NCBI GenBank assembly: GCA_021784575.1
Contig: JAJYHX010000005.1
Location: 62,001 to 126,000 of the forward strand
Origin: Nitrospirota bacterium
GTDB taxonomy: Bacteria > Nitrospirota > JACRHJ01
Direction of reading: 5' to 3'
DNA: 64,000 nucleotides
The notes under the pieces are model-generated. The model did no database searches and was not told where the DNA came from. It saw only the letters and a program-made list of their open reading frames with translations. The position numbers and the translations under genes were made by a program. Shown in pieces: positions 5,876 to 62,502 of this stretch; the stretch's first letter is position 1, and every line of letters begins with the position of its first letter.

Positions 5876-6655
5876 CTACTTCGCCGGGATTTCTCCGGCC
5901 AGGTCCTTCTTCGCCTTCTCGGCGTAGCGGTTGTTCGGGTGCCCCTGGTAGAGCATCGCAAGGGTGTCCTTGGCGTCGCTGTATTTCTTCAGCCGGATAT
6001 ACGAATCCGCAAGAAAATAAAGGACTTTCGGTTCGTCCTGGCTGCCAGGATACCTGGAAATTATCCCCTTGAAGCGCCGGGCCGCCGCCTTGTAGTCGTC
6101 TTTTTCGTAATAAAACCAGCCGACTACGAACTCATGCCTTGCCATGAAGACCCTGGAAAGCCGGAGCTTCTCCTTGGCCTCGTCCTCGTAGGGATTGCCC
6201 GGGAACTCCTTGAGAAGCTTGGAGAAATCCTTTATGGAGTTCTGCGCGAAGGACGGGTCCCTGTCGGGGAGGTCTATCTGCCTGAAGTTGCACATCCCGA
6301 CCTGGTAGAGCACGTATGGCGCGGCCTTGTTCTTCGGATGAAGCGTCAGGAACCGCTTGTATTCCACCTCCGCCTCGTCGTATCTGCCCTGTTCGTAATA
6401 GGAATCTCCCAGGCGCACCTCGACCAGCGCGTCGTAGTATCTCTCCGGGTCGTGCGCTCGTATCTCATTGTATTTCTTACGAGCCTGCTTGTAATCGCCC
6501 TTCGATAAGAGCGCCTCGCCCTGTTTGAATATCTCGTCCGGATTGCTCTGGGGCGCCTTTGCGCTCGGCTGTCCGCCCCACCTGAATACGGTGCAGGCGG
6601 GCAGGAGGGCCAGAAGAGCCGCAAGCGCAAAAACCGCGTAACGCCTGGTTTTCAT
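5876..6655 (-). CDS. bamD: BamD-like outer-membrane assembly lipoprotein
   Basis: Lipoprotein with a signal peptide ending in LLPAC (lipobox; Cys about residue 21), followed by tandem TPR-like repeats. These include QGEALLSKGDYKQARKKYNE, RYDEAEVEYKRFLTLHP, DYKAAARRFKGIISRYP and KYSDAKDTLAMLYQGHP. The repeat layout and length of 259 residues match BamD/YfiO of the BAM complex that inserts beta-barrel proteins into the outer membrane. Last gene of the long minus-strand block, directly after the cyclophilin gene (stop and start adjacent). Confidence 0.85.
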   Translation of the reverse strand: MKTRRYAVFALAALLALLPACTVFRWGGQPSAKAPQSNPDEIFKQGEALLSKGDYKQARKKYNEIRAHDPERYYDALVEVRLGDSYYEQGRYDEAEVEYKRFLTLHPKNKAAPYVLYQVGMCNFRQIDLPDRDPSFAQNSIKDFSKLLKEFPGNPYEDEAKEKLRLSRVFMARHEFVVGWFYYEKDDYKAAARRFKGIISRYPGSQDEPKVLYFLADSYIRLKKYSDAKDTLAMLYQGHPNNRYAEKAKKDLAGEIPAK

Positions 6656-10343: not shown

Positions 10344-11579
10344 TTAAAATATCATCTCCATCCCTGACAGCCGTCTCTTTATCTCCCGCAGCACCCGCTC
10401 CTCGTCCTTCCTGCCCCTTGCCTCGAATGTCGCGGAAAGGCGGATATACGCGCCCGCGTCGTCCCAGGGCACGGTGGAGATGAGTTTCTCCTTTATCAGG
10501 TATTCGGAGAAGTCCTCGGCTGTCTCGAAGCGCCGTCCGCCCCTGATTCCCTTGGGCGCCTTCGTGTAGAGGTAAAACGAGCCGCCGGGCATCTTCGCCT
10601 TGAAGCCCGCGGGCTTGAGAATCTCCACAAGCGCCTTAAGTCTCCTTTTGTATTTCTCCGCCGTCGCCACGGTTATCTCCGGGTGCGCGAGCGCATGGCA
10701 TCCGGCCTTCTGGATGGCCTTGAACTGGCCTGAGTCGCAGTTGTCCTTTATGTGTCCGAAGGCGGAGACGACCCGCTCGTTCCCCGCGACGAACGCGAGC
10801 CGCCAGCCGGTCATATTGAACGCCTTGGACATCGAGTGTATCTCGACGCCGACTTCCTTCGCGCCGGGCGTCGAGAGAAACGAAAGCGGTTTTCCCTTGT
10901 AGACCAGCGCCGCGTATGCCGCGTCCTGCACGACCACGATTTTATTCTCCCGCGCGAAATCCACCACTCCGGCGAAGAACTTCTTCGTCGCTACGGCCCC
11001 GGTCGGGTTGTTCGGGTAGTTGATGTAGAGGAGCTTCGCGCGTCTTTTTATGCCCGTCGGGATGTTGTCCAGCCGGGGCAGGAAATTGTTCTTCTCCTCA
11101 AGCGGGAGATGATAAACCTCGCCCCCGGCATATTTAGTATGCGTGGCGAGGATGGGGTATCCGGGCACGGTGACGAGCGCTATGTCTCCCGGATTAATAA
11201 ACGCATAAGGGAGCATCGCCAGCGCGGGCTTGGAGCCGATGGAATGAATTATCTCCTTCTGCGGGTCGATTCCCTTTACGCCGTAAACCTCCCGCAGATA
11301 CTCTGCCGCCGCATCCTTGTATTCCTGGATGCCGTTGTCCGCATAGCCCCTGTTCTCGGGCCTTGCGGCCTCGGCAGAGAGCGCCTTGACGACGCTTCTG
11401 TCCGCCATCTCGTCCGGCTCGCCAACGCCGAGGTCGATTATCTCCGCGCCGGGGTTGGCCGCGAGGGCTGAGCGCTTCGCTCTTTTTATCTTCTCGAATT
11501 TATAAATCTTCGTCTCTTTCCCGAACCTGCCCCCGCCGATCCTCCCGGAAAAAAGCCTTTGGATGTAACTGTCGGTCAA
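10344..11579 (-). CDS. dapL: LL-diaminopimelate aminotransferase
   Basis: PLP-dependent fold-type I aminotransferase converting tetrahydrodipicolinate directly to LL-diaminopimelate, bypassing the acyl pathway. The PLP lysine is in SMSKAFNMTGWRLAF. YPNNPTGAVA and VVQDAAYAALVY, with its cofactor Asp, are visible, and the N-terminus contains IIDLGVGEPDEMA. The family also contains other aspartate/alanine-type aminotransferases. The assignment rests on similarity plus its place among lysA, dapF, dapA and dapB, which otherwise lack the succinylase or acetylase genes. Confidence 0.85.
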   Translation of the reverse strand: MTDSYIQRLFSGRIGGGRFGKETKIYKFEKIKRAKRSALAANPGAEIIDLGVGEPDEMADRSVVKALSAEAARPENRGYADNGIQEYKDAAAEYLREVYGVKGIDPQKEIIHSIGSKPALAMLPYAFINPGDIALVTVPGYPILATHTKYAGGEVYHLPLEEKNNFLPRLDNIPTGIKRRAKLLYINYPNNPTGAVATKKFFAGVVDFARENKIVVVQDAAYAALVYKGKPLSFLSTPGAKEVGVEIHSMSKAFNMTGWRLAFVAGNERVVSAFGHIKDNCDSGQFKAIQKAGCHALAHPEITVATAEKYKRRLKALVEILKPAGFKAKMPGGSFYLYTKAPKGIRGGRRFETAEDFSEYLIKEKLISTVPWDDAGAYIRLSATFEARGRKDEERVLREIKRRLSGMEMIF

Positions 11580-51640: not shown

Positions 51641-52813
51641 TTAATCGATATTTATTCCGGTTTCTGTAACTTTCACGGGTTTTGCCATCCGCGCCGGTAT
51701 GCCGAACTTCGCCGCCGCGGCCGGGGTAAAGAGCCTGTAATAGAGGACGGCCCTGGCGCGGGCGGATCCCTTCGGGACGGCATATGTCAGGGTCCGCGTC
51801 TCGCCGGACTTTATCCTCGAATCGACGGCCTTTTCGGCCATCCAGGGCGGCACGCCCTTCTTCGGGCCCGCCGTGAATACGCGCATGAACAGTTCTTTTT
51901 TGCCGGGCATGGGCGCGGGGCTTGCGAAGAGAACTTTCCCGTTTTTGTCAAGAAACTCCACCTTGACATACGCCGCGCGCATGGGGCTTGTGGAGGGGAA
52001 ATAATGCGGGTTGGCGTTTTTGATATTGACCGACAGCATCCCATTGTTGACTTCAAGCGAAAGCGATATTCCCGCTTTCAGCATGTTTGTGTAGTGCCCG
52101 CCGGGGAAGAGGTGCGAGAAGTGGGTATCCTTGACGAAAATGTCCGTCTTTTTCATTGCGGGATAAGCCGCGGGCGCGCCGGGCGTCTTCGGCATGTGGC
52201 ATTTCACGCAGTCGGAATGCCCTTCCATGTCCATGCTGCATATCACCGTCCCCCTGCCGTTTTTCATCTTGCCGTGACAGCCGAGACACATCTGCGAGGG
52301 CGAATTAAACGACCACTTGCTTACGGGATGCGGCGCGGAGACCCCGGATACGGCCCCGGCGGATGTCATGCTCGTCGAGAGCGCGTAGGTGTTGAAAAGC
52401 TTCCCGCCGGACATGCCTTCGACGCTGTGGCAGAACGCGCAGGGGATGCCGGGGTTGGACGAATACGCCTCCTTCGCGCCCGAGGCCAGCCTGCCCGAGG
52501 CCGGTCTGCCGGCGGCGGGATTATGGCAGCTCCCGCAGAAATACGGGGCCTTTTTGCCTGCTTTCGCCATGGACTGCGAAAAAGCCCGGAAGACGGCGTC
52601 ATGCGCGGGGTCGGACGACCTGCCGGACATGGAGTGCATCGACATGCTCCACTCGTTATATATCTGCAAATGGCACGGCCTGCATGAGGCGGAGCTCCTG
52701 AACCCCTTGAAACCCGCCGGGAGCTTGTGCGCAAACGCGGCGGCGGGAAACATCAAAAGCAGGAAAAAAGCAAAAAAGACACCTCTTTTATTAAATTCCG
52801 GGGTTTTCTTCAA
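51641..52813 (-). CDS. Pentaheme c-type cytochrome
   Basis: A 390-residue exported protein (signal peptide to AFAHK) with five CxxCH haem sites at about residues 44, 93, 125, 176 and 202 (CRPCH, CGSCH, CAFCH, CLGCH, CVKCH). The C-terminal half is beta-rich (SLEVNNGMLSVNIKNANPHY, GETRTLTYAVPKGSARA). This layout resembles cytochrome c554-type or hydroxylamine-reductase-related multihaem proteins. It is a periplasmic electron-transfer protein; partners are unknown. Between haems two and three it has PAAGRPASGRLASGA, encoded by a mini-repeat. Confidence 0.88.
   Translation of the reverse strand: MKKTPEFNKRGVFFAFFLLLMFPAAAFAHKLPAGFKGFRSSASCRPCHLQIYNEWSMSMHSMSGRSSDPAHDAVFRAFSQSMAKAGKKAPYFCGSCHNPAAGRPASGRLASGAKEAYSSNPGIPCAFCHSVEGMSGGKLFNTYALSTSMTSAGAVSGVSAPHPVSKWSFNSPSQMCLGCHGKMKNGRGTVICSMDMEGHSDCVKCHMPKTPGAPAAYPAMKKTDIFVKDTHFSHLFPGGHYTNMLKAGISLSLEVNNGMLSVNIKNANPHYFPSTSPMRAAYVKVEFLDKNGKVLFASPAPMPGKKELFMRVFTAGPKKGVPPWMAEKAVDSRIKSGETRTLTYAVPKGSARARAVLYYRLFTPAAAAKFGIPARMAKPVKVTETGINID
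52482..52524 (-). repeat. In-gene mini-repeat in the pentaheme cytochrome
   Basis: CCGGTCTGCCGG at 52501-52512 (plus-strand reading), preceded by GAGGCCAGCCTGCCCGAGG. The coding strand gives AAGRPASGRLASG, directly after the second haem-binding motif. Confidence 0.6.
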
Positions 52814-53470: not shown

Positions 53471-53773
53471 ATGCCATACGCATACCATGAAAACGAAGAC
53501 AGGCTTGACAACAGGACGAAGGAGCTTCACAGGGCGTTTCAGTCGATTGTGGAGGAGCTTGAGGCGGTGGACTGGTATCAGCAGAGGATAGACGCCACAG
53601 AGGACAAAGAGCTGAAGGCGATACTTGCGCACAACCGGGACGAAGAAAAGGAGCACGCCTCCATGCTCCTTGAGTGGGTGCGCAAAAACGACCCCGCCTT
53701 CGCCAAGGAGATGTCGTCTTTCCTTTTCAAGGAAGGCATCAAGGCAACGGACATCGAGAAGAAACGCTCTTAG
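53471..53773 (+). CDS. Encapsulated-ferritin-type (EncFtn) ferritin-like protein
   Basis: A 100-residue two-helix ferritin-like protein with the EncFtn motifs VEELEAVDWYQQRIDA and LAHNRDEEKEHASMLLEWVR. These carry the Glu and Glu-x2-His iron ligands that form a ferroxidase centre only after dimerisation. In the family it stores iron inside encapsulin shells. I see no C-terminal encapsulin-targeting peptide and no encapsulin gene in this window, so it is a stand-alone form here or its shell gene lies elsewhere. It starts 3 nt after the permease remnant and converges on the HD-GYP gene. Confidence 0.87.
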   Translation: MPYAYHENEDRLDNRTKELHRAFQSIVEELEAVDWYQQRIDATEDKELKAILAHNRDEEKEHASMLLEWVRKNDPAFAKEMSSFLFKEGIKATDIEKKRS

Positions 53774-55785
53774 TCCGGACTCCCGAGCACACGGAGGAAC
53801 GCTTCCACCGCCGCCGGGTCGAACTGCGTCCCCGTGCACCTTTTCAGCTCCGCTATCGCGAGGCCCCTGTCCTGGGCCTTCCGGTACGGGCGGTCCGCCG
53901 TGAAGGAGTCGAAGAAGTCCGCCACGGATATTATCCTTGCCGCCAGGGGGATTTCTCCGCCCTTCAGGCGCCGGGGATAGCCTCCGCCGTCCCAGCGCTC
54001 GTGGTGGTGCCGGATGACCGGTATTATGTCCCTGAACTGCTTTATCGGCGCGATTATCTCCGCGCCCCGGTCGCAGTGGCCTTTTATTTTCTCGTATTCC
54101 CCGTCCGTAAGCGCCCCCGGCTTGTCGAGCAGTTCGTCCGAAATCCCGATCTTCCCTATATCGTGCAGAAGCCCCGCAAGGCGCAGCCTCTCCAACTCGT
54201 CTTCCATAAGCCCCATCTCTTTCCCTATCTTCAGGGCGTAGCCCGTAACGCGGGCCGAGTGTCCGCGCGTCCAGTGGCTCTTTGCGTCTATCGCCGACGA
54301 GAGCGCCTGGACGGTGCTCAGCAGCATGTTCTCCAGGTCCGTAATCAGGCGCGTGTTCTCAAGCGCTATGCCTATCTGGTACGCCAGTTTCTCGGCCATC
54401 GACGTGTCTTCGTAAGTAAAACCGGCCACCCTGCGGCTCCCCAGCCTTATAAGCCCGAGGGCCGCCCCCTTGCTCATTATGGGCACGATTATCTCCGAGC
54501 GTATTGCGGCGTCCCTGAACACGCCGTCATGCCTGCATATCTTCTTCTCTTCCAGGACGTCCGCCCTGACCGTCGGCTTGCCGGAGAGGAGCGTGTCGGC
54601 GCCCGGCGAGCCGTCGAGCAGGAACTGCTCGCCTTTTTCAAGCCCGGCGCCCCAGCAGCAGCTCACGGAGAGCGTCTTCTCCTCGCCGTTCAAGAGCAGT
54701 ATGCACCCGGCGTCCGCGGGTATGAGCCGCTTTATCTGTAGCGAGACCTTGGAGAGCATGTCTTCCCTGTCGAGCGTCGAGAGTATCATCCTGTCTATCT
54801 CGTGCAGGACGCGGAGCGCCTCCATGCCCTTCGCCAGCTCCAGCCTCTTTTTCTGCGTCTCCTCGTAGAGACTCGCGTTCTCGAAAGCGCTCCCAAGCTG
54901 GGCCGCTATGCCTTTTATCAGGGCCGGGATGCGGGAATCGCCGTCCGCCTTCCGGATGTTTATCACGAGGAAGCCGACGACGCGCTCCCTGGCCATTATC
55001 GGCGCGATTATCAGCTCCTTCAGCCTCAGGTTCGACACGATAACATCCGGCACCATAAGGCCAAGCTCGTCCGCGCCGAGCTTTAAAAGCTTCTTTGTGA
55101 GCATAACCTGTTCGAGAGCGCGTATGTCCGAAAGCCTGGGCCTCATCTCCGTCAGTACCGAGCCTATGCCGTCGCTGCAGGAAACCGCCGCGCCGGACGA
55201 AAGCCTCCCGTCCGAATCCGACAATATCACCGTCGCCCCCTCGAAACGGATGATACCCTTCAGCACACGGAGCACCTTTTCGGCCGTCTCGTTCCAGTTT
55301 ATGGATGAAGATGTTATCTCGGCCATCTTGAGCAGGGCGTTCGACACCTCAAGCTCCGCCTTCAGCGCGTCTTCCGCCTTGTCCCGCTCCATCCTCATGT
55401 CGCGGTCGAAGACCGCCCTTTCCACCGACGGCACGAGCCTTGCGAGCCTGTCCTTCATAACATAGTCCCATGCCCCGGCCCTTACGGCCTCGACGGCCAT
55501 GTCTTCGCTCGCATCCCCGGAAACCACTATAAGAGGGACGTCGGGCCTTTTCTCCCGTATGAGCTTCAGGGCGGCCTCGCCGAGCAACTGCGGCATCTCG
55601 TAGTTCGAGAGCACGATGTCCCAGTCGTCTCGCCCGCCGCTCATGGCCGCGGCCATTTCTTCGGGCGTCGAGACGCGCTCCGAATGGACTTCGTATCCGC
55701 CCTTCAGTAGCGTCTCGGCCATGCGGGCGGCGTCGTTTTCGGAGTTTTCCACCATCAATACTCTCAGGGAGCGTTTTGGAGTCAT
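53770..55785 (-). CDS. REC-GAF-GAF-HD-GYP protein with degenerate receiver
   Basis: A 671-residue protein. The N-terminal receiver-like domain (about 7-120) has Asn61 in the phospho-acceptor position (DIVLSNYEMP) and EN instead of the acidic pair, but keeps Ser89 and Lys111, so it is probably not phosphorylated normally. Two GAF-like regions follow (residues about 150-300 and 320-490). The C-terminal HD-GYP domain has H541-D542 (LLHDIGKIGI), HHHERWDGGGYP with GYP at 602-604, and should hydrolyse cyclic di-GMP. Likely a signalling enzyme; the input is unknown. It converges on the ferritin-like gene by 4 nt. Confidence 0.9.
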   Translation of the reverse strand: MTPKRSLRVLMVENSENDAARMAETLLKGGYEVHSERVSTPEEMAAAMSGGRDDWDIVLSNYEMPQLLGEAALKLIREKRPDVPLIVVSGDASEDMAVEAVRAGAWDYVMKDRLARLVPSVERAVFDRDMRMERDKAEDALKAELEVSNALLKMAEITSSSINWNETAEKVLRVLKGIIRFEGATVILSDSDGRLSSGAAVSCSDGIGSVLTEMRPRLSDIRALEQVMLTKKLLKLGADELGLMVPDVIVSNLRLKELIIAPIMARERVVGFLVINIRKADGDSRIPALIKGIAAQLGSAFENASLYEETQKKRLELAKGMEALRVLHEIDRMILSTLDREDMLSKVSLQIKRLIPADAGCILLLNGEEKTLSVSCCWGAGLEKGEQFLLDGSPGADTLLSGKPTVRADVLEEKKICRHDGVFRDAAIRSEIIVPIMSKGAALGLIRLGSRRVAGFTYEDTSMAEKLAYQIGIALENTRLITDLENMLLSTVQALSSAIDAKSHWTRGHSARVTGYALKIGKEMGLMEDELERLRLAGLLHDIGKIGISDELLDKPGALTDGEYEKIKGHCDRGAEIIAPIKQFRDIIPVIRHHHERWDGGGYPRRLKGGEIPLAARIISVADFFDSFTADRPYRKAQDRGLAIAELKRCTGTQFDPAAVEAFLRVLGSPD

Positions 55786-55961: not shown

Positions 55962-56576
55962 ATGCACAAGTTAAAGGAATTCAAACTGGAAGGGAAACTG
56001 GGGGGCATATCCGACAGACAGATACAGGAGCACAGGGACGTGCTTTACAAGGGCTACGTTGACAAGCTGAACCTGCTTGAAGAGGAGATAAAAAACGCAA
56101 AAACGGAAGGGGCGAACCCCACATATTCGCCGATACGGGAGCTTTTCAAGGAGAAGTCTTTCACGACAAACGCGGTCTTCCTGCACGAGCTTTATTTTGC
56201 CAATCTCGGCGGCGGCGGAAAAGGGCCCGGCGGCAAGCTGTCCGAGATGATAAATGAAAAATGGGGGTCGTTCGACAAGTGGCAGGAGCAGTTCAGGGCG
56301 GTGGGCATGTCCGGGCGCGGATGGGCTGTCCTCTCGTGGAGCATGAACGACAACTCCCCGCACAACTACATGATGGATATGCACGACATCGGCGCCATCT
56401 GGAACGAAATCCCCCTTCTTATACTCGACGTCTACGAGCACGCCTATTTTATCGACTACGGCACGAAGAGGGCGGCTTATCTCGACGCGTTCTTCCGGAA
56501 CATAGACTGGAACGTCGTGGAGAAGAGGCTCCAGACGGCCATGAAGCTCGAAGAGGCCCTCAGAAAGGCCGCTTAA
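55962..56576 (+). CDS. Fe/Mn superoxide dismutase
   Basis: A 204-residue cytosolic SOD. Likely metal ligands are the His in IQEHRDVLYKGYVDKLN, the His in NAVFLHELYFANL and the Asp/His of LDVYEHAYFIDYGTKRAAYL. The metal-site Trp in SGRGWAVLSW is present. The HH pair of standard Fe/Mn SODs is replaced around the first ligand (EHRD), a variant seen in diverged members, so Fe versus Mn cannot be assigned. It has a strong promoter and GGAGG SD, and comes first in the plus-strand run towards the dehydratase and dehydrogenase genes. Confidence 0.93.
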   Translation: MHKLKEFKLEGKLGGISDRQIQEHRDVLYKGYVDKLNLLEEEIKNAKTEGANPTYSPIRELFKEKSFTTNAVFLHELYFANLGGGGKGPGGKLSEMINEKWGSFDKWQEQFRAVGMSGRGWAVLSWSMNDNSPHNYMMDMHDIGAIWNEIPLLILDVYEHAYFIDYGTKRAAYLDAFFRNIDWNVVEKRLQTAMKLEEALRKAA

Positions 56577-56581
56577 AGCAG

Positions 56582-57841
56582 ATGCCGCTCACGCTTGCCG
56601 AGAAACTCATCTCCATGCACGCGGGCCGGGAGGTTCGTGCGGGCGAGCTGACCGTCGTTAAGGTGGACTTCGCCTACGTGCAGGACTGGACGGGGCCTCT
56701 GACGGTGGACAAGATTGCGGAGCTTGGGGCGGGGCTTTCCAGTGCCCCGTCCCATACCGCGGTTTTTATAGACCACGCGTCGCCGTCTTCGTTCAGGGAG
56801 GTCTCCTCCGGGCATGTGAAGCTCCGGGAGTACGCCAGAAGCTCCGGCTGCCTGCTCCACGACGTTGGCGAGGGCGTAAGCCACCTTGTCCTGGGCGAAA
56901 AGATTACGGCCCCCGGTATGCTCATGGTGGGCGCGGATTCCCACACCTGCCAGGGCGGGGCGCTCGGCGCGTTCGCCACGGGAATGGGCTCCACGGACAT
57001 CGCCGTGGCCATCGCCACGGGCGAGACATGGATGCTCGTCCCGGAGGCGATACGGGTGGAGGTGACGGGCAGGCTTAAGCCGGGCGTGTATTCCAAGGAC
57101 ATTATTCTTTATCTTATCGGGCTTATCGGCTCGGACGGCGCGACTTACCAGTCGCTCGAATTCTTCGGCGAGACAATCGAGAGCCTCTCCATCCCCGGAA
57201 GGACGACGATTTCCTCCATGGCCGTCGAGGCCGGGGGCAAGTGCGGCCTGTTCGAGCCGGACGGCCATACGCTTGAGTGGCTGCGCGAGAACGGGCGCGA
57301 GGGCGATTACAGGGAGATAAAGGCGGACAGGGGCGCGCATTACGCGCGGGTAATAAAAATCGACGCTGCCTCCTTGGAGCCTATGGTGTCCTTCCCGCAC
57401 ATGGTGGACAACACCAGGCCCGTCTCGCACCCGGATTGCAGGAACGTCCCGGTTCACCAGGCATACCTGGGCTCCACGACCAACGGTTATTTCGAGGACT
57501 TCGAGGCGGCGGCAAAGGTGCTCAAGGGGCGTCATGCCGCGCCCGGCGCAAGGCTTGTCATAACCCCCGGCACAAAGAGCGTCTACCGGAAGATGATGTC
57601 CTCCGGGCTTATGGACGTGTTCCTCGACGCCGGCGGCGTCATAAACTCGCCGGGGTGCGGGGCGTGCCCCGGGAGCCACGAGGGAATCCTCGGCGACGGC
57701 GAGAACTGCGTCGCCTCGATAAACAGGAACTTCAAGGGCAGGATGGGAAACCCCAGGGCCTTCGTCTATCTCGCCTCGCCGGCGACGGTCGCGGCCTCGG
57801 CGATAGAGGGGAAGCTTGCGGACCCGCGGAGGTATCTGTGA
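56582..57841 (+). CDS. Aconitase/isopropylmalate dehydratase-like large subunit with a missing cluster Cys
   Basis: About 419 residues of the LeuC/homoaconitase type. GADSHTCQGGALGAFATGMG, the IDHASPSSFREV active-site loop, IGSDGATYQSLEF and SISSMAVEAGGKCGLFEPD-like segments are present. Two of the three usual Fe-S cysteines occur (C359 and C362 in CGACPGSHEG). The third position reads GSTTNG instead of GSCTNG, with Thr299 where Cys is expected. Either cluster binding is altered or this is a distinct subgroup. The substrate (aconitate, isopropylmalate or other) is not clear, and no leuA/leuB is nearby. Coupled to the small subunit by GTGA overlap. Confidence 0.82.
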   Translation: MPLTLAEKLISMHAGREVRAGELTVVKVDFAYVQDWTGPLTVDKIAELGAGLSSAPSHTAVFIDHASPSSFREVSSGHVKLREYARSSGCLLHDVGEGVSHLVLGEKITAPGMLMVGADSHTCQGGALGAFATGMGSTDIAVAIATGETWMLVPEAIRVEVTGRLKPGVYSKDIILYLIGLIGSDGATYQSLEFFGETIESLSIPGRTTISSMAVEAGGKCGLFEPDGHTLEWLRENGREGDYREIKADRGAHYARVIKIDAASLEPMVSFPHMVDNTRPVSHPDCRNVPVHQAYLGSTTNGYFEDFEAAAKVLKGRHAAPGARLVITPGTKSVYRKMMSSGLMDVFLDAGGVINSPGCGACPGSHEGILGDGENCVASINRNFKGRMGNPRAFVYLASPATVAASAIEGKLADPRRYL

Positions 57842-58332
57842 GCGGAAAGGCCTGGAAGTTCGGCGACAACATAAGCACCGACCTCATCGCCGCGGGCAGG
57901 TACGCGCACCTTCGGACGAACCTGCCGGAGCTTGCAAAGCACGTCCTTGAGGACGCGCGGGACGAGTTCAGGACGGGCGTGAAACAGGGCGATTTCGTCG
58001 TCGGGGGCAGGAATTTCGGCCTCGGCTCCTCGCGCGAGCACGCCCCGACGATCATAAAAATGGCCGGGACGTCGTGCGTCGCCGCGAAGTCCTTCGCCCG
58101 CATATTCTTCCGTAACTGCATAAACATCGGCCTTCCGGCGGTGCGGGTGGATACGGACAGGATAGACGACGGGGACGAGCTCGAGCTCGACCTTGCGGCA
58201 GGGGTATTGAGGGACAGGACAAAGGGCATGGAGCTTTCCTTCCCGCCGATGCCGAAGGTAATGACGGACATCCTGAGCGCGGGCGGGCTGGTGCCGTATC
58301 TGAAGAAGAATAAAGGATTCAAGTTGGCGTGA
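57838..58332 (+). CDS. Aconitase/isopropylmalate dehydratase-like small subunit
   Basis: About 164 residues of the LeuD type. FGDNISTDLIAAGRYAHL, the substrate loop NFGLGSSREHAP (Leu in place of the common Cys), and SFARIFFRNCINIGLPAVRV are visible. The GTG start overlaps the large-subunit stop. Its TGA overlaps the next ATG, so the pair is coupled to E1alpha. Together with the upstream subunit it forms a dehydratase of uncertain substrate. Confidence 0.85.
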   Translation: MSGKAWKFGDNISTDLIAAGRYAHLRTNLPELAKHVLEDARDEFRTGVKQGDFVVGGRNFGLGSSREHAPTIIKMAGTSCVAAKSFARIFFRNCINIGLPAVRVDTDRIDDGDELELDLAAGVLRDRTKGMELSFPPMPKVMTDILSAGGLVPYLKKNKGFKLA

Positions 58333-59288
58333 TGGACCAGGACATAGAACTTTACTACCGCCTTCGCCTTGTCCGGGAGTTCGAGGACAGGGTCTCGAAG
58401 CTACATCACCAGGGGAAGATTCCCGGCGGCGTCTACTCCGGCCTGGGGCAGGAAGCCGTGGTCGTCGGAACGGTATACGGGCTGAAGCCCGACGACTTCA
58501 TCTTCCCCCTGCACCGGGACCTGGGCGCCTTCCTCGTAAAGGGCGTCGACCCGAACATCCTCATGGCGCAGATAATGGGAAAAAAGGCCGGCTTCTCCGG
58601 CGGGCGGGACTCCTTCCTTCATGCCGGAGTCCTGGACAAGGGCGTAATCGGCTCGACATCCATGCTCGCCTCGTCGCTCCCGGTGGCCTGCGGGGCCGCG
58701 CTGAAGTTCAAGATAAAAAAGGAGCCGCGCGTCGCCGTCGCGTTCTTCGGCGAGGGCGCGTCCTCCAGGGGGGATTTCCACGAGGCGCTGAACTTCGCGG
58801 GCATCCACAAGCTCCCGGTAATATTCGTCTGCGAGAACAACTTCTATGCGTTCTCCACTCCGCAGACCACGCAGATGGCGATCGAAGACGTTGCGGACAG
58901 GGCCGCGGGATACGGCTTTCACGGGCACGTGTGCAGCGGCAACGACCTCTTCGCCGTCATGCGGGCGATGGAGCACGCGGTAAACCAGGCGCGGCGCGGC
59001 GAAGGCCCGGAGCTTATAGAGTGCAAGACCTACCGCTACTCCGGCCACAGCGAGCACGACGTGGCGTCCTACCGCACGAAGGAAGAGCTTATCGAGTGGG
59101 AAAGCCGCGACCCGATACAGCGGTATGAGTTCTTCCTCGAAAAGAAGGGATACGACGCGGCCAAGATAATCGCCGAGACGGGCGGGAAGGTAAAGGCCGT
59201 CGTGGACGAGGCGGTGAAATTCGCCGAATCCTCCCCGGAGCCGGAAGGCCCGGAGGCTATGGAAGGATTATATGCGACACCGGTGTAA
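58332..59288 (+). CDS. Pyruvate/2-oxoacid dehydrogenase E1 alpha subunit
   Basis: About 318 residues. The TPP-binding region GEGASSRGDFHEALNFAGIH and VIFVCENNFYAFSTP fits E1alpha. The N-terminus YYRLRLVREFEDRVSKLHHQ and GRDSFLHAGVLDKGVIGSTS is typical. E1 decarboxylates the 2-oxoacid and transfers the acyl group to lipoyl-E2. Pyruvate is the likely substrate, but branched-chain oxoacid or acetoin complexes have the same layout. The ATG overlaps the stop of the dehydratase small subunit. A palindromic repeat separates it from E1beta. Confidence 0.92.
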   Translation: MDQDIELYYRLRLVREFEDRVSKLHHQGKIPGGVYSGLGQEAVVVGTVYGLKPDDFIFPLHRDLGAFLVKGVDPNILMAQIMGKKAGFSGGRDSFLHAGVLDKGVIGSTSMLASSLPVACGAALKFKIKKEPRVAVAFFGEGASSRGDFHEALNFAGIHKLPVIFVCENNFYAFSTPQTTQMAIEDVADRAAGYGFHGHVCSGNDLFAVMRAMEHAVNQARRGEGPELIECKTYRYSGHSEHDVASYRTKEELIEWESRDPIQRYEFFLEKKGYDAAKIIAETGGKVKAVVDEAVKFAESSPEPEGPEAMEGLYATPV

Positions 59289-59461: not shown

Positions 59462-60439
59462 ATGGAACTGACCTACATAAAAGCCATCAATAACGCTCTC
59501 CGGCAGGCCATGCGGCTGGACTCCGACGTCATTCTCCTGGGCGAGGACATCGGCGCGCTGGGCGGGGCGTTCCTTGCGACGGAGGGGCTGCTTAATGAGT
59601 TCGGCCCGGAGCGGGTAATCGACACGCCTATCTCCGAGTCCCTCATAAACGGCGCGGCGGTCGGGCTTGCCGTGGCCGGTATGCGGCCCGTGGCGGAGAT
59701 GCAGTTTGCGGACTTCATCGCCTGCGGGTTCGACCAGCTCGTGAACATGGCCGCGACGCTCCGCTACAGGCACGGCGGGGGCGCGAAGTGTCCGATGGTC
59801 GTGCGCTGCCCGTCCGGGAGCGGCGTGCGCGGCGGATTATTCCATTCGCAGAACCCCGAGGCGTGGTTTGCGCGTGTGCCGGGGCTCAAGGTCGTCGCGC
59901 CCGCGACGGCTTTCGACGCCAAGGGTCTTCTCATCGCCGCAATTCAGGACGACGACCCGGTGATATACTTCGAGCACAAGTTCCTCTACCGGCGCATAAA
60001 GGAAGACGTCCCGGAGGACAGCTACATCGTCCCTATCGGAAAGGCGGCGCTGAGGCGCGAGGGCGGCGACATATGCTTCATCACCTACGGCTCCGCGCTG
60101 TATCATTGCCTCGCGGCGGCGGATGAACTGGAAAAGGAGGGCGTATCCTCCGAGGTGCTTGACCTCCGGACGCTTCTGCCGCTCGACAAAAGGGCGATAA
60201 TCGAATGCGCCAGGAAGACGGGCAAGGTGCTGATAGTCCACGAGGACAGGGTTACCGGCGGCATCGGCGGCGAGGTCTCGGCCATAATCATGGAGAACGC
60301 CTTCGAGTATCTCGACGCCCCCGTGATGCGCCTTGGGGCGAAGGACACGCACAACGCCTTCGCCGGGCCGATGGAGGAATACATACTGCCTAACAAGGAA
60401 AAGGTTCTTCAGGCGGCAAGAAAGCTGGCGGGATATTAA
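59462..60439 (+). CDS. Pyruvate/2-oxoacid dehydrogenase E1 beta subunit
   Basis: A 325-residue transketolase-like subunit. MRLDSDVILLGEDIGALGGA, DTPISESLINGAAVGLAVAG, MQFADFIACGFDQLVNMAAT, and the C-terminal HEDRVTGGIGGEVSAIIME are typical of E1beta. It completes the E1 heterotetramer. Its stop overlaps the next ATG by 1 nt. Confidence 0.93.
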   Translation: MELTYIKAINNALRQAMRLDSDVILLGEDIGALGGAFLATEGLLNEFGPERVIDTPISESLINGAAVGLAVAGMRPVAEMQFADFIACGFDQLVNMAATLRYRHGGGAKCPMVVRCPSGSGVRGGLFHSQNPEAWFARVPGLKVVAPATAFDAKGLLIAAIQDDDPVIYFEHKFLYRRIKEDVPEDSYIVPIGKAALRREGGDICFITYGSALYHCLAAADELEKEGVSSEVLDLRTLLPLDKRAIIECARKTGKVLIVHEDRVTGGIGGEVSAIIMENAFEYLDAPVMRLGAKDTHNAFAGPMEEYILPNKEKVLQAARKLAGY

Positions 60440-60921
60440 TGAGAATCGCCGCAAATGAAAAAATTAGAACCCGCCGCATAGAGTTAGGGCTAAATGATGT
60501 TATAACAGCTCAACAAGCGGGACTTTCTAAAATGAATTACTTTGATATTGAATTGCATCCTGACGAAATTTATACAGTAACAGACCTTTGGCAGGTAAAA
60601 AAGCTTGTAGATGTGCTCGAATTGGATTTCCTTGATTTATTTGATATTCAATGCACTTTTTGTAACGGCAAAGAAGGTTTTTTGAACGACTACCTGCTTC
60701 CGCGTAATGAAATTATACAGAAAAAAAGAAAATCTCTTAACTTATCTCAAGAAGAGCTTGGCGTCCGTGTGGGTTTTTATGAAATAGCAATTATCGAGAT
60801 GGAGCGTGAACCGGACTTTCTGGAATCGTGGTCTATCGAACTTATAAACGACCTTGCAAATATAATAAAAGTTCCATTACAAATATTGCTTCATGTCAAA
60901 TGTAGCAAATGTGGACGATAA
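60439..60921 (+). CDS. AT-rich HTH (XRE-like) protein inside the dehydrogenase operon
   Basis: A 160-residue protein. Residues about 1-60 form a divergent helix-turn-helix (NEKIRTRRIELGLNDVITAQ then GLSKMNYFDIE). Residues about 95-145 form a second, better HTH (IIQKKRKSLNLSQEELGVRV). Cys pairs CTFCNG and CSKCGR could bind a metal. The base composition is clearly AT-richer than both neighbours. The ATG overlaps the E1beta stop, and E2 begins 30 nt downstream. Probably a transcription factor acquired by transfer; its target is unknown. Confidence 0.8.
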   Translation: MRIAANEKIRTRRIELGLNDVITAQQAGLSKMNYFDIELHPDEIYTVTDLWQVKKLVDVLELDFLDLFDIQCTFCNGKEGFLNDYLLPRNEIIQKKRKSLNLSQEELGVRVGFYEIAIIEMEREPDFLESWSIELINDLANIIKVPLQILLHVKCSKCGR

Positions 60922-60951: not shown

Positions 60952-62502
60952 ATGACCGACGTAAAGATGCCCCAGATGGGGGAGAGCATAGCCGAGGGGA
61001 CGATTTCGCTCTGGCTGGTGGACGCGGGCCAGACGGTAAAGGCCGACCAGCCGCTTGTTACGGTCTCCACGGACAAGGCGGACGTGGACATCCCCTCGCC
61101 CGTCTCCGGCGTCCTTTCGGAAATTATCGCCAAACAGGGCGAAACCATAAAAGTGGGGAAATTAATAGCACGGATAGACGAAAAAGCTACGGAAGTGGTG
61201 GGAAAATTAGAAAAACAACCTGAAGATAAGAAATCCGTGGCAACCCCGGCCCGGCCCGAAGCCAGTCAACCGGCAGCAGGTCTGCCGGCCCCGCCGCGCC
61301 CGGAAGGCGTCCCTGCCGCGGAGGCGAAGCGCGGGACCCGTCCCGAAGAAGAGGTTACGCCACCAGCGGAAATAGAAAGGCCGGAGGCCGAGCTTGCGCC
61401 GGAACTGCTTGATAAATCGGCATTTTATTCCCCGGCGGTCATGCGGCTTGCTATCGGGCGCGGCATCGACTTAAAGACCGTAAAAGGCACCGGCGAGGGC
61501 GGGCGCGTGAGCAAGGCGGACGTTATACGCGCGGTTGCCGGCGCCGGCAAACCTGAACCGGCGGCGGCTCGGCCGACGCCCGTCGAGGGAGTTTCGGGCG
61601 CGGAGATTGGAAAAAGTGTCGAGGCCGTGAAGATTGAGACCGCGCCGCTAAAGGCCCCGGAGGCGAAGACCGCCGTCAAACCCGAGGCCGGTCTACCGGC
61701 TGGCGGAGCTTACAAGCCGCCGGTTTACGAGGTCGAAGACGGCGATACGGAGGTTCCATTCTCCCGTTTAAGGAGGATAATCGCCGACCACATGGTTTAC
61801 AGCAAAAAGACGTCTGCCCATGTTACAACCGTAACAGAGGTTGATTTCGAGCAGATTGTGGGAATACGTGAGCGAATCAAGGACAGGATAAAGGCTTCCG
61901 TGGGAATCAGCCTTACATACATGCCTTTTGTGATGATGGCGGCTGTCCGGGCGCTGAAGGAGTTTCCGCTAATGAATTCCGTCGTCCAGGGAGGCCGGGC
62001 TACCGGCGGCGGTGACGCCATCCTCATGAAGCGCGGCATAAACCTCGGCGTGGCCGTGGATTCCGAACGCGGGCTGATGGTCCCGGTGATAAGGGGCGCG
62101 GAGAACATGTCCCTGCCGGAGATGGCAAAGTCTCTGAGCGAGCTTTCGATAAGGGTGCGGGAAAGAAAGGTTACCGCCGACGAGATGTCGGGCGGGACGT
62201 TCACGATAACAAATCCCGGAAAGCGCGGAAACCTTTTCGGGACGCCGATTATCAGCCAGCCGCAGGTGGGGATACTGAGGATGGGAGAGCTTGTAAAACG
62301 CGCGGTTGTAGTTACCGCGGAGCCTTGCCCGCCGACGCCCGAAGGCGGTCTGCCGCCTCGACCGGCAGAGGACGCCATAGCCATCCGGCCCATGATGTAC
62401 CTGGCGCTTTCCTACGACCACCGCGTGGTGGACGGCGTTACGGCCAACGAGTTCCTGCACCGCATAAAAGAGCATCTGGAGGCGGGGGACTTTGAATTAT
62501 AA
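60952..62502 (+). CDS. Dihydrolipoamide acyltransferase (E2)
   Basis: A 516-residue E2. The N-terminal lipoyl domain has the lipoylated Lys in VSTDKADVDIPSP. A Pro/Ala linker with EASQPAAGLPAPPRPEG follows, then the peripheral-subunit-binding domain (YSPAVMRLAIGRGIDLKTVK). A second linker has PEAGLPAGG. The catalytic domain ends with SYDHRVVDGVTANEFL and contains VPVIRGAENMSLPEMAKSLS and TFTITNPGKRGNLFGTPI. GGAGG precedes the ATG. E3 is not in the window. Three mini-repeats sit in the two linkers and near PEGGLPPRPAE in the catalytic domain. Confidence 0.95.
   Translation: MTDVKMPQMGESIAEGTISLWLVDAGQTVKADQPLVTVSTDKADVDIPSPVSGVLSEIIAKQGETIKVGKLIARIDEKATEVVGKLEKQPEDKKSVATPARPEASQPAAGLPAPPRPEGVPAAEAKRGTRPEEEVTPPAEIERPEAELAPELLDKSAFYSPAVMRLAIGRGIDLKTVKGTGEGGRVSKADVIRAVAGAGKPEPAAARPTPVEGVSGAEIGKSVEAVKIETAPLKAPEAKTAVKPEAGLPAGGAYKPPVYEVEDGDTEVPFSRLRRIIADHMVYSKKTSAHVTTVTEVDFEQIVGIRERIKDRIKASVGISLTYMPFVMMAAVRALKEFPLMNSVVQGGRATGGGDAILMKRGINLGVAVDSERGLMVPVIRGAENMSLPEMAKSLSELSIRVRERKVTADEMSGGTFTITNPGKRGNLFGTPIISQPQVGILRMGELVKRAVVVTAEPCPPTPEGGLPPRPAEDAIAIRPMMYLALSYDHRVVDGVTANEFLHRIKEHLEAGDFEL
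61258..61305 (+). repeat. In-gene mini-repeat in E2 linker (first)
   Basis: AGTCAACCGGCAGCAGGTCTGCCGGCC region encoded as SQPAAGLPA. Further copies in the same gene lie at 61688-61699 (CCGGTCTACCGG, AGLPAGG) and 62338-62370 (EGGLPPRPAED). Confidence 0.6.

Follow-up and report, generated by a model that had tools for sequence, protein, structure and literature searches.

The acoLS locus

The window analysed here is a 64,000-nucleotide stretch of a contig from an uncultured Nitrospirota bacterium. It contains genes for the two subunits of an aconitase-like protein, called acoL and acoS, which are followed by genes of a 2-oxoacid dehydrogenase. The gene order is SOD-acoL-acoS-E1alpha-E1beta-HTH-E2-trpS and the features, all on the forward strand, are:

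55962..56576 (+), Fe/Mn superoxide dismutase, upstream of acoL
56582..57841 (+), acoL, large subunit of 419 aa, aconitase/LeuC-HacA family, in which Thr299 replaces the first cluster cysteine (open reading frame, NCBIfam, PF00330, AlphaFold/PDB)
57470..57487 (+), GSTTNG motif (G297-S-T299-T-N-G302), DNA GGC TCC ACG ACC AAC GGT (open reading frame, alignment, five genomes)
57476-57478 (+), codon ACG for Thr299, where the family has Cys (open reading frame)
57656..57667 (+), CGAC, the remaining cluster cysteines C359 and C362 (position in the frame; invariant in the alignment)
57838..58332 (+), acoS, small subunit of 164 aa, SSRE intact, Leu in NFGLGSSREHAP (TIGR02087 above cut-off, PF00694)
58329..59288 (+), 2-oxoacid dehydrogenase E1 alpha, with a start that, in this genome, overlaps the stop of acoS
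59462..60439 (+), 2-oxoacid dehydrogenase E1 beta (NF006667 above cut-off)
60439..60921 (+), putative HTH regulator-like protein of 160 aa, whose frame overlaps with the stop of E1 beta (open reading frame; no NCBIfam match; HTH assigned by eye)
60952..62502 (+), E2 lipoyl acyltransferase of 516 aa (SucB and PDH E2 models, all below equivalog cut-off)

The two subunit genes overlap by GTGA. The acoS and E1 alpha genes overlap or abut in the window and in L120, an arrangement that is not universal among relatives. Short, repeat-like sequences that differ from one another lie between these two genes in L117 (~11225-11340) and L119 (~6411-6490). The HTH-like protein is encoded between the E1 beta and E2 genes. 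The adjacent 2-oxoacid dehydrogenase, pointed out in an earlier note on this DNA, is a conserved neighbour: acoL-acoS-E1alpha-E1beta is kept in genomes G001 and G004 and in the sister genus (G005), while in G003 the comparison of gene order is limited by a contig that ends within E1 alpha. The superoxide dismutase gene is near acoL in the genus and was not found near acoL in the sister genus. Two reverse-strand genes lie further upstream. One (51641-52813), kept near the operon in related genomes, encodes a protein that resembles multihaem c-type cytochromes, has several CxxCH motifs and matches no NCBIfam model. The other (53770-55785), divergent from the operon and conserved in the genus, encodes a response regulator whose C-terminal (HD) domain resembles c-di-GMP phosphodiesterases.

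The E1 proteins encoded beside acoS resemble the branched-chain/pyruvate type, and a second, separate PDH-like operon in the genome is 33–47% identical. Elsewhere, the genome encodes citrate synthase, an AcnA-type aconitase, an isocitrate dehydrogenase-like protein, lipoamide dehydrogenase and LeuABCD, the last in a cluster on contig C11, away from acoL. Because the genes for these pathways are separate, neither the TCA cycle nor leucine synthesis obviously depends on acoL. The isocitrate dehydrogenase-like protein (L144, 2774-3856) resembles the type found beside two-subunit aconitases in other phyla; its gene stands apart from any aconitase gene here. The genome also has two POR_N proteins and no SucA C-terminal domain. 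Of its three HMGL proteins, one is the LeuA of the leu cluster, another resembles citramalate synthase and the third is a 653-aa frame elsewhere. The surroundings of acoL showed neither a dedicated homocitrate-type synthase nor any synthase or dehydrogenase dedicated to a new hydroxy acid.

A superfamily member with two cluster cysteines

AcoL and AcoS belong to the aconitase/isopropylmalate isomerase/homoaconitase superfamily, as defined by fold and catalytic residues. PF00330 in the large subunit and PF00694 in the small subunit both score above cut-off, as do the NCBIfam models NF001614, TIGR01343 and TIGR02086, which describe general aconitase/IPMI/homoaconitase subfamilies. The AlphaFold model of AcoL has a pLDDT of 94.5, and its best PDB matches are the large subunits of MJ0499 and MJ1003, with TM-scores of 0.92–0.94. 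These are the methanogen isopropylmalate/citramalate isomerase and homoaconitase, which share the fold and catalytic residues with AcoL at ~40% identity. In contrast to AcoL, they have Cys in the GSCTNG motif. The more specific NCBIfam equivalog models fit AcoL less well: LEU2 scores 435.9 against a cut-off of 610.65, and HacA_Meth, the methanogen homoaconitase model, scores 384.9 against 550.

Members of the superfamily hold their cluster with three cysteines, equivalent to Cys358, Cys421 and Cys424 of aconitase. Thr299 of AcoL occupies the site of the first [4Fe-4S] ligand, Cys358, and only two cluster cysteines are left. As the three-cysteine arrangement is broken, AcoL should not be filed by function as an aconitase, a LeuC or a homoaconitase. 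The earlier note had read Thr at codon 299 and a retained CxxC pair at 359 and 362, and both readings hold. Its description of the protein as aconitase/LeuC-like needs correcting in part: the nearest relatives are, by gene context, two-subunit aconitases rather than isopropylmalate enzymes (see below).

Conservation and origin of the threonine

Direct orthologues of acoL were found in four further genomes of the GTDB family of the host (99 genomes searched). Three are from congeners, at 93–94% identity, and one is from another genus, at 77%. A sixth family genome, which is 75% complete, yielded LeuC only and no acoL. All five AcoL sequences, four of one genus and one of another, read GSTTNGY, and synonymous differences flank the Thr codon among the relatives (TCC/TCG and GGT/GGC/GGA/GGG). 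Thus, the close relatives, in which a Cys would have undone the earlier claim, carry Thr as well. Pairwise dN/dS of acoL among family members is 0.05–0.15. Together, the five of five Thr sequences and the low dN/dS indicate that the change is ancestral to the family and has been maintained. By these sequence measures, acoL is under purifying selection and is kept intact in a small family of uncultured bacteria.

Outside this clade, Cys is found at the position of Thr299 in 72 of 72 aligned homologues, and likewise in every other homologue listed, in a set that comprises the best 80 loci of a genome-wide scan across many phyla plus relatives from the phylum and is smaller than all public sequences. 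The DNA pattern G[ST]TTNGxxxD, searched in 396 genomes of the host phylum, gave matches in nine genomes besides the five family members. In-frame reading covered the matches other than L153–L155. Those at L157–L159 are in frame in proteins that, by eye, resemble radical-SAM proteins, and L151, L152, L156 and L160 had no long open frame containing the motif where checked; the idea that GSTTNG is more widespread in the phylum was rejected on this basis. No report of a Cys-to-Thr aconitase or LeuC was found in the open-access papers searched. The Thr variant is real, conserved and specific to the clade.

The earlier note had suggested asking whether GSTTNG homologues form a clade. In a maximum-likelihood tree they do, with support of 100/100 and a stem that measures 0.84 changes per site, compared with a median end branch of 0.23. 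The clade is nested in a subfamily with members from Melainabacteria, Zixiibacteriota, Omnitrophota, Actinomycetota, archaea and another family of the host phylum, although its placement among the nearest of these relatives is not settled by the tree. In eight subfamily members (L037, L040, L042, L047, L062 and L122–L124) the gene adjoins at least one of two genes, for a Re-citrate-synthase-like HMGL protein and for isocitrate dehydrogenase, these neighbours being named by eye from sequence. Such neighbours make two-subunit aconitases the best reading of the subfamily, and the tree places a single origin of the Thr clade inside it.

These two-subunit aconitases are the closest known systems. 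For most (L037, L042, L047 and others) the large subunit is 50–55% identical to AcoL, and for L062 it is 48%. They share with AcoLS the two-gene layout, the NFGLGSSREH small subunit and the catalytic residues (L037, L042, L047, L062). Unlike AcoL, they (for example L037) read GTCTNGR or GSCTNGR, have Asn as residue 212 and Thr as residue 124, and lie beside citrate-synthase-like and isocitrate dehydrogenase genes instead of a 2-oxoacid dehydrogenase.

Active-site residues kept and changed

When the clade is aligned to pig mitochondrial aconitase, the residues kept are, in aconitase numbering, Q72, D73, D100, H101, H147, D165, S166, H167, E262, C421, C424, N446, R447 and R452. Hence all of the catalytic residues of the superfamily are present: D100-H101, H147, D165-S166-H167, E262, R447 and R452, along with SSRE of the small subunit.

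Several changes at conserved positions of the large subunit are confined to the clade. C299T (C358) and N212S (N258) replace a Cys and an Asn, and T124Q (position 170) a Thr, each present in 72 of 72 sequences elsewhere, while R303Y places Tyr after TNG where 70 of 72 have Arg. The changes specific to the clade also include Trp for A74 (W36), Leu for Q148 (L102) and S100, where most relatives have Cys. The changed positions other than C358 presumably lie close to the cluster. That pocket changes are fixed, with the acid-base residues intact, fits altered chemistry better than decay. In aconitase, the cluster ligands and D165, H167 and H147 are described as cluster-site residues, and a “fourth cysteine” has been noted near the cluster site of the methanogen enzymes (PMC8184944). 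The latter would correspond to position 100 of AcoL. With Ser at this position and His kept at that of His147, there is no obvious third Cys ligand.

The small-subunit Leu in NFGLGSSREHAP, also singled out in the earlier note, is present but is not unusual: outside the clade it occurs in 14 of 62 small subunits, among them those of almost all the closest relatives. The closest relatives with this Leu all keep the large-subunit Cys, so that its proposed link to the Thr was rejected. The Leu is a subfamily trait unrelated to the Thr. The recognition loop of the small subunit changes from IAPGRYFHLRSN to IAAGRYAHLRTN in the clade, where the Arg is kept and the Phe lost.

Comparison with aconitase X and AcoB

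Bacterial aconitase X also lacks the equivalent of Cys358; it keeps a Cys pair and carries a [2Fe-2S] cluster, for which a Cys in the place of His147 is the third ligand (PMC8184944). The enzyme is therefore a precedent for function in the superfamily without this ligand. The likeness to AcoL is limited to the replaced Cys358 and the kept Cys pair. Aconitase X has CxC, a Cys as third ligand at the His147 position and other active-site residues, whereas AcoL has CxxC, His101 at that position and the classical aconitase residues. AtAcnX is ~14% identical to AcoL, and there is no AcnX model among the NCBIfam and Pfam matches of AcoL. AcoL is not aconitase X.

A different parallel is AcoB of Aspergillus, an aconitase-family duplicate that exists beside a true aconitase and for which no activity was detected (PMC3556520). 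This fungal aconitase is mitochondrial, shares 53% identity with AcoA and is not reported to have lost a cluster Cys (PMC3556520).

What AcoLS may do

Sequencing error or a decaying gene would be the simplest explanation of a lost ligand, and both the host genome and those of its relatives are draft assemblies with many contigs. It was rejected, as five independent genomes carry the same codon, three base changes separate Cys (TGY) from Thr (ACG), and the frame is open with the low dN/dS given above. Rather unlikely on balance, though a serious rival, is a pseudoenzyme whose catalytic cluster is lost and which persists through a structural, metabolite-sensing or regulatory function exerted together with the 2-oxoacid dehydrogenase. 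The loss of both an otherwise invariant cluster ligand and a conserved active-site Asn, the long stem branch, the true aconitase elsewhere in the genome and the example of AcoB (PMC3556520) all agree with it. A pseudoenzyme would not need, however, the acid-base residues, the substrate-binding Arg and the remaining Cys that are strictly kept across both subunits.

Another serious rival is that AcoLS is a second TCA-cycle aconitase of ordinary chemistry, next to a dehydrogenase complex of the 2-oxoglutarate type, with Thr oxygen or water taking the place of one Cys ligand of its [4Fe-4S] cluster. The nearest relatives are aconitases by context, the Arg of the recognition loop (LRTN) is kept, the adjacent E2 scores best with succinyltransferase models and the canonical SucA C-terminal domain is absent from the genome. 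Yet the E2 scores all fall below equivalog cut-offs, the two POR_N proteins could use 2-oxoglutarate instead, a full AcnA-type aconitase is already encoded and several pocket residues conserved among the aconitase relatives are changed, which makes this proposal unlikely. Very unlikely is a cluster-free enzyme in which the CxxC pair, with residues close by, binds a mononuclear metal, Fe or Zn. Just two of the three Cys ligands are left and CxxC, D119, H101 and H121 are kept, but this analysis found no precedent in the aconitase family, and aconitase X itself is reported to have Fe-S clusters (PMC8184944).

The explanation we favour, at close to even chances, is that AcoLS is a hydro-lyase that has neofunctionalised, with a changed metal centre and a link to the neighbouring 2-oxoacid dehydrogenase. 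Here, a two-subunit aconitase of the LeuCD-like type would have been duplicated or acquired, then reshaped in the ancestor from which one bacterial family descends, and fixed. The protein would most likely still be a hydro-lyase, in which the retained Asp-His pair, Ser and Arg act on a hydroxy-carboxylic acid. Its metal centre would be held by the CxxC pair without a Cys358-type ligand, and may be a smaller or labile Fe-S cluster, or a cluster completed by Thr oxygen or water. The product or substrate may connect to the 2-oxoacid dehydrogenase, which is probably part of the same operon; linkage alone does not prove a shared pathway. Also counting against this explanation are the lack of an obvious third Cys ligand, which aconitase X has in place of His147, and the lack of a neighbouring synthase or dehydrogenase gene dedicated to a new hydroxy acid. 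The earlier suggestion of a different cluster or metal, or of an unusual substrate, remains the best-supported reading, given that other pocket positions changed and the catalytic residues stayed, with cofactor and substrate predicted from these residues and neighbours. In its most specific form, which is doubtful, full acid-base machinery would work with a two-cysteine centre, [2Fe-2S] or mixed and O-ligated, on a new substrate that feeds the adjacent dehydrogenase. Cluster type would then have changed independently inside the mainstream aconitase/IPMI branch.

In aconitase, isopropylmalate isomerase and homoaconitase, all three cluster cysteines are regarded as essential. Annotation pipelines would call AcoL an enzyme of the aconitase/LeuC/homoaconitase family and leave the missing ligand unflagged. 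A stable natural lineage that lacks one of these cysteines and keeps the other catalytic residues makes a change in cofactor or reaction testable, and lets one ask whether aconitase X is a unique departure. AcoLS probably carries out new chemistry or, failing that, provides a natural test of this family without its standard cofactor.
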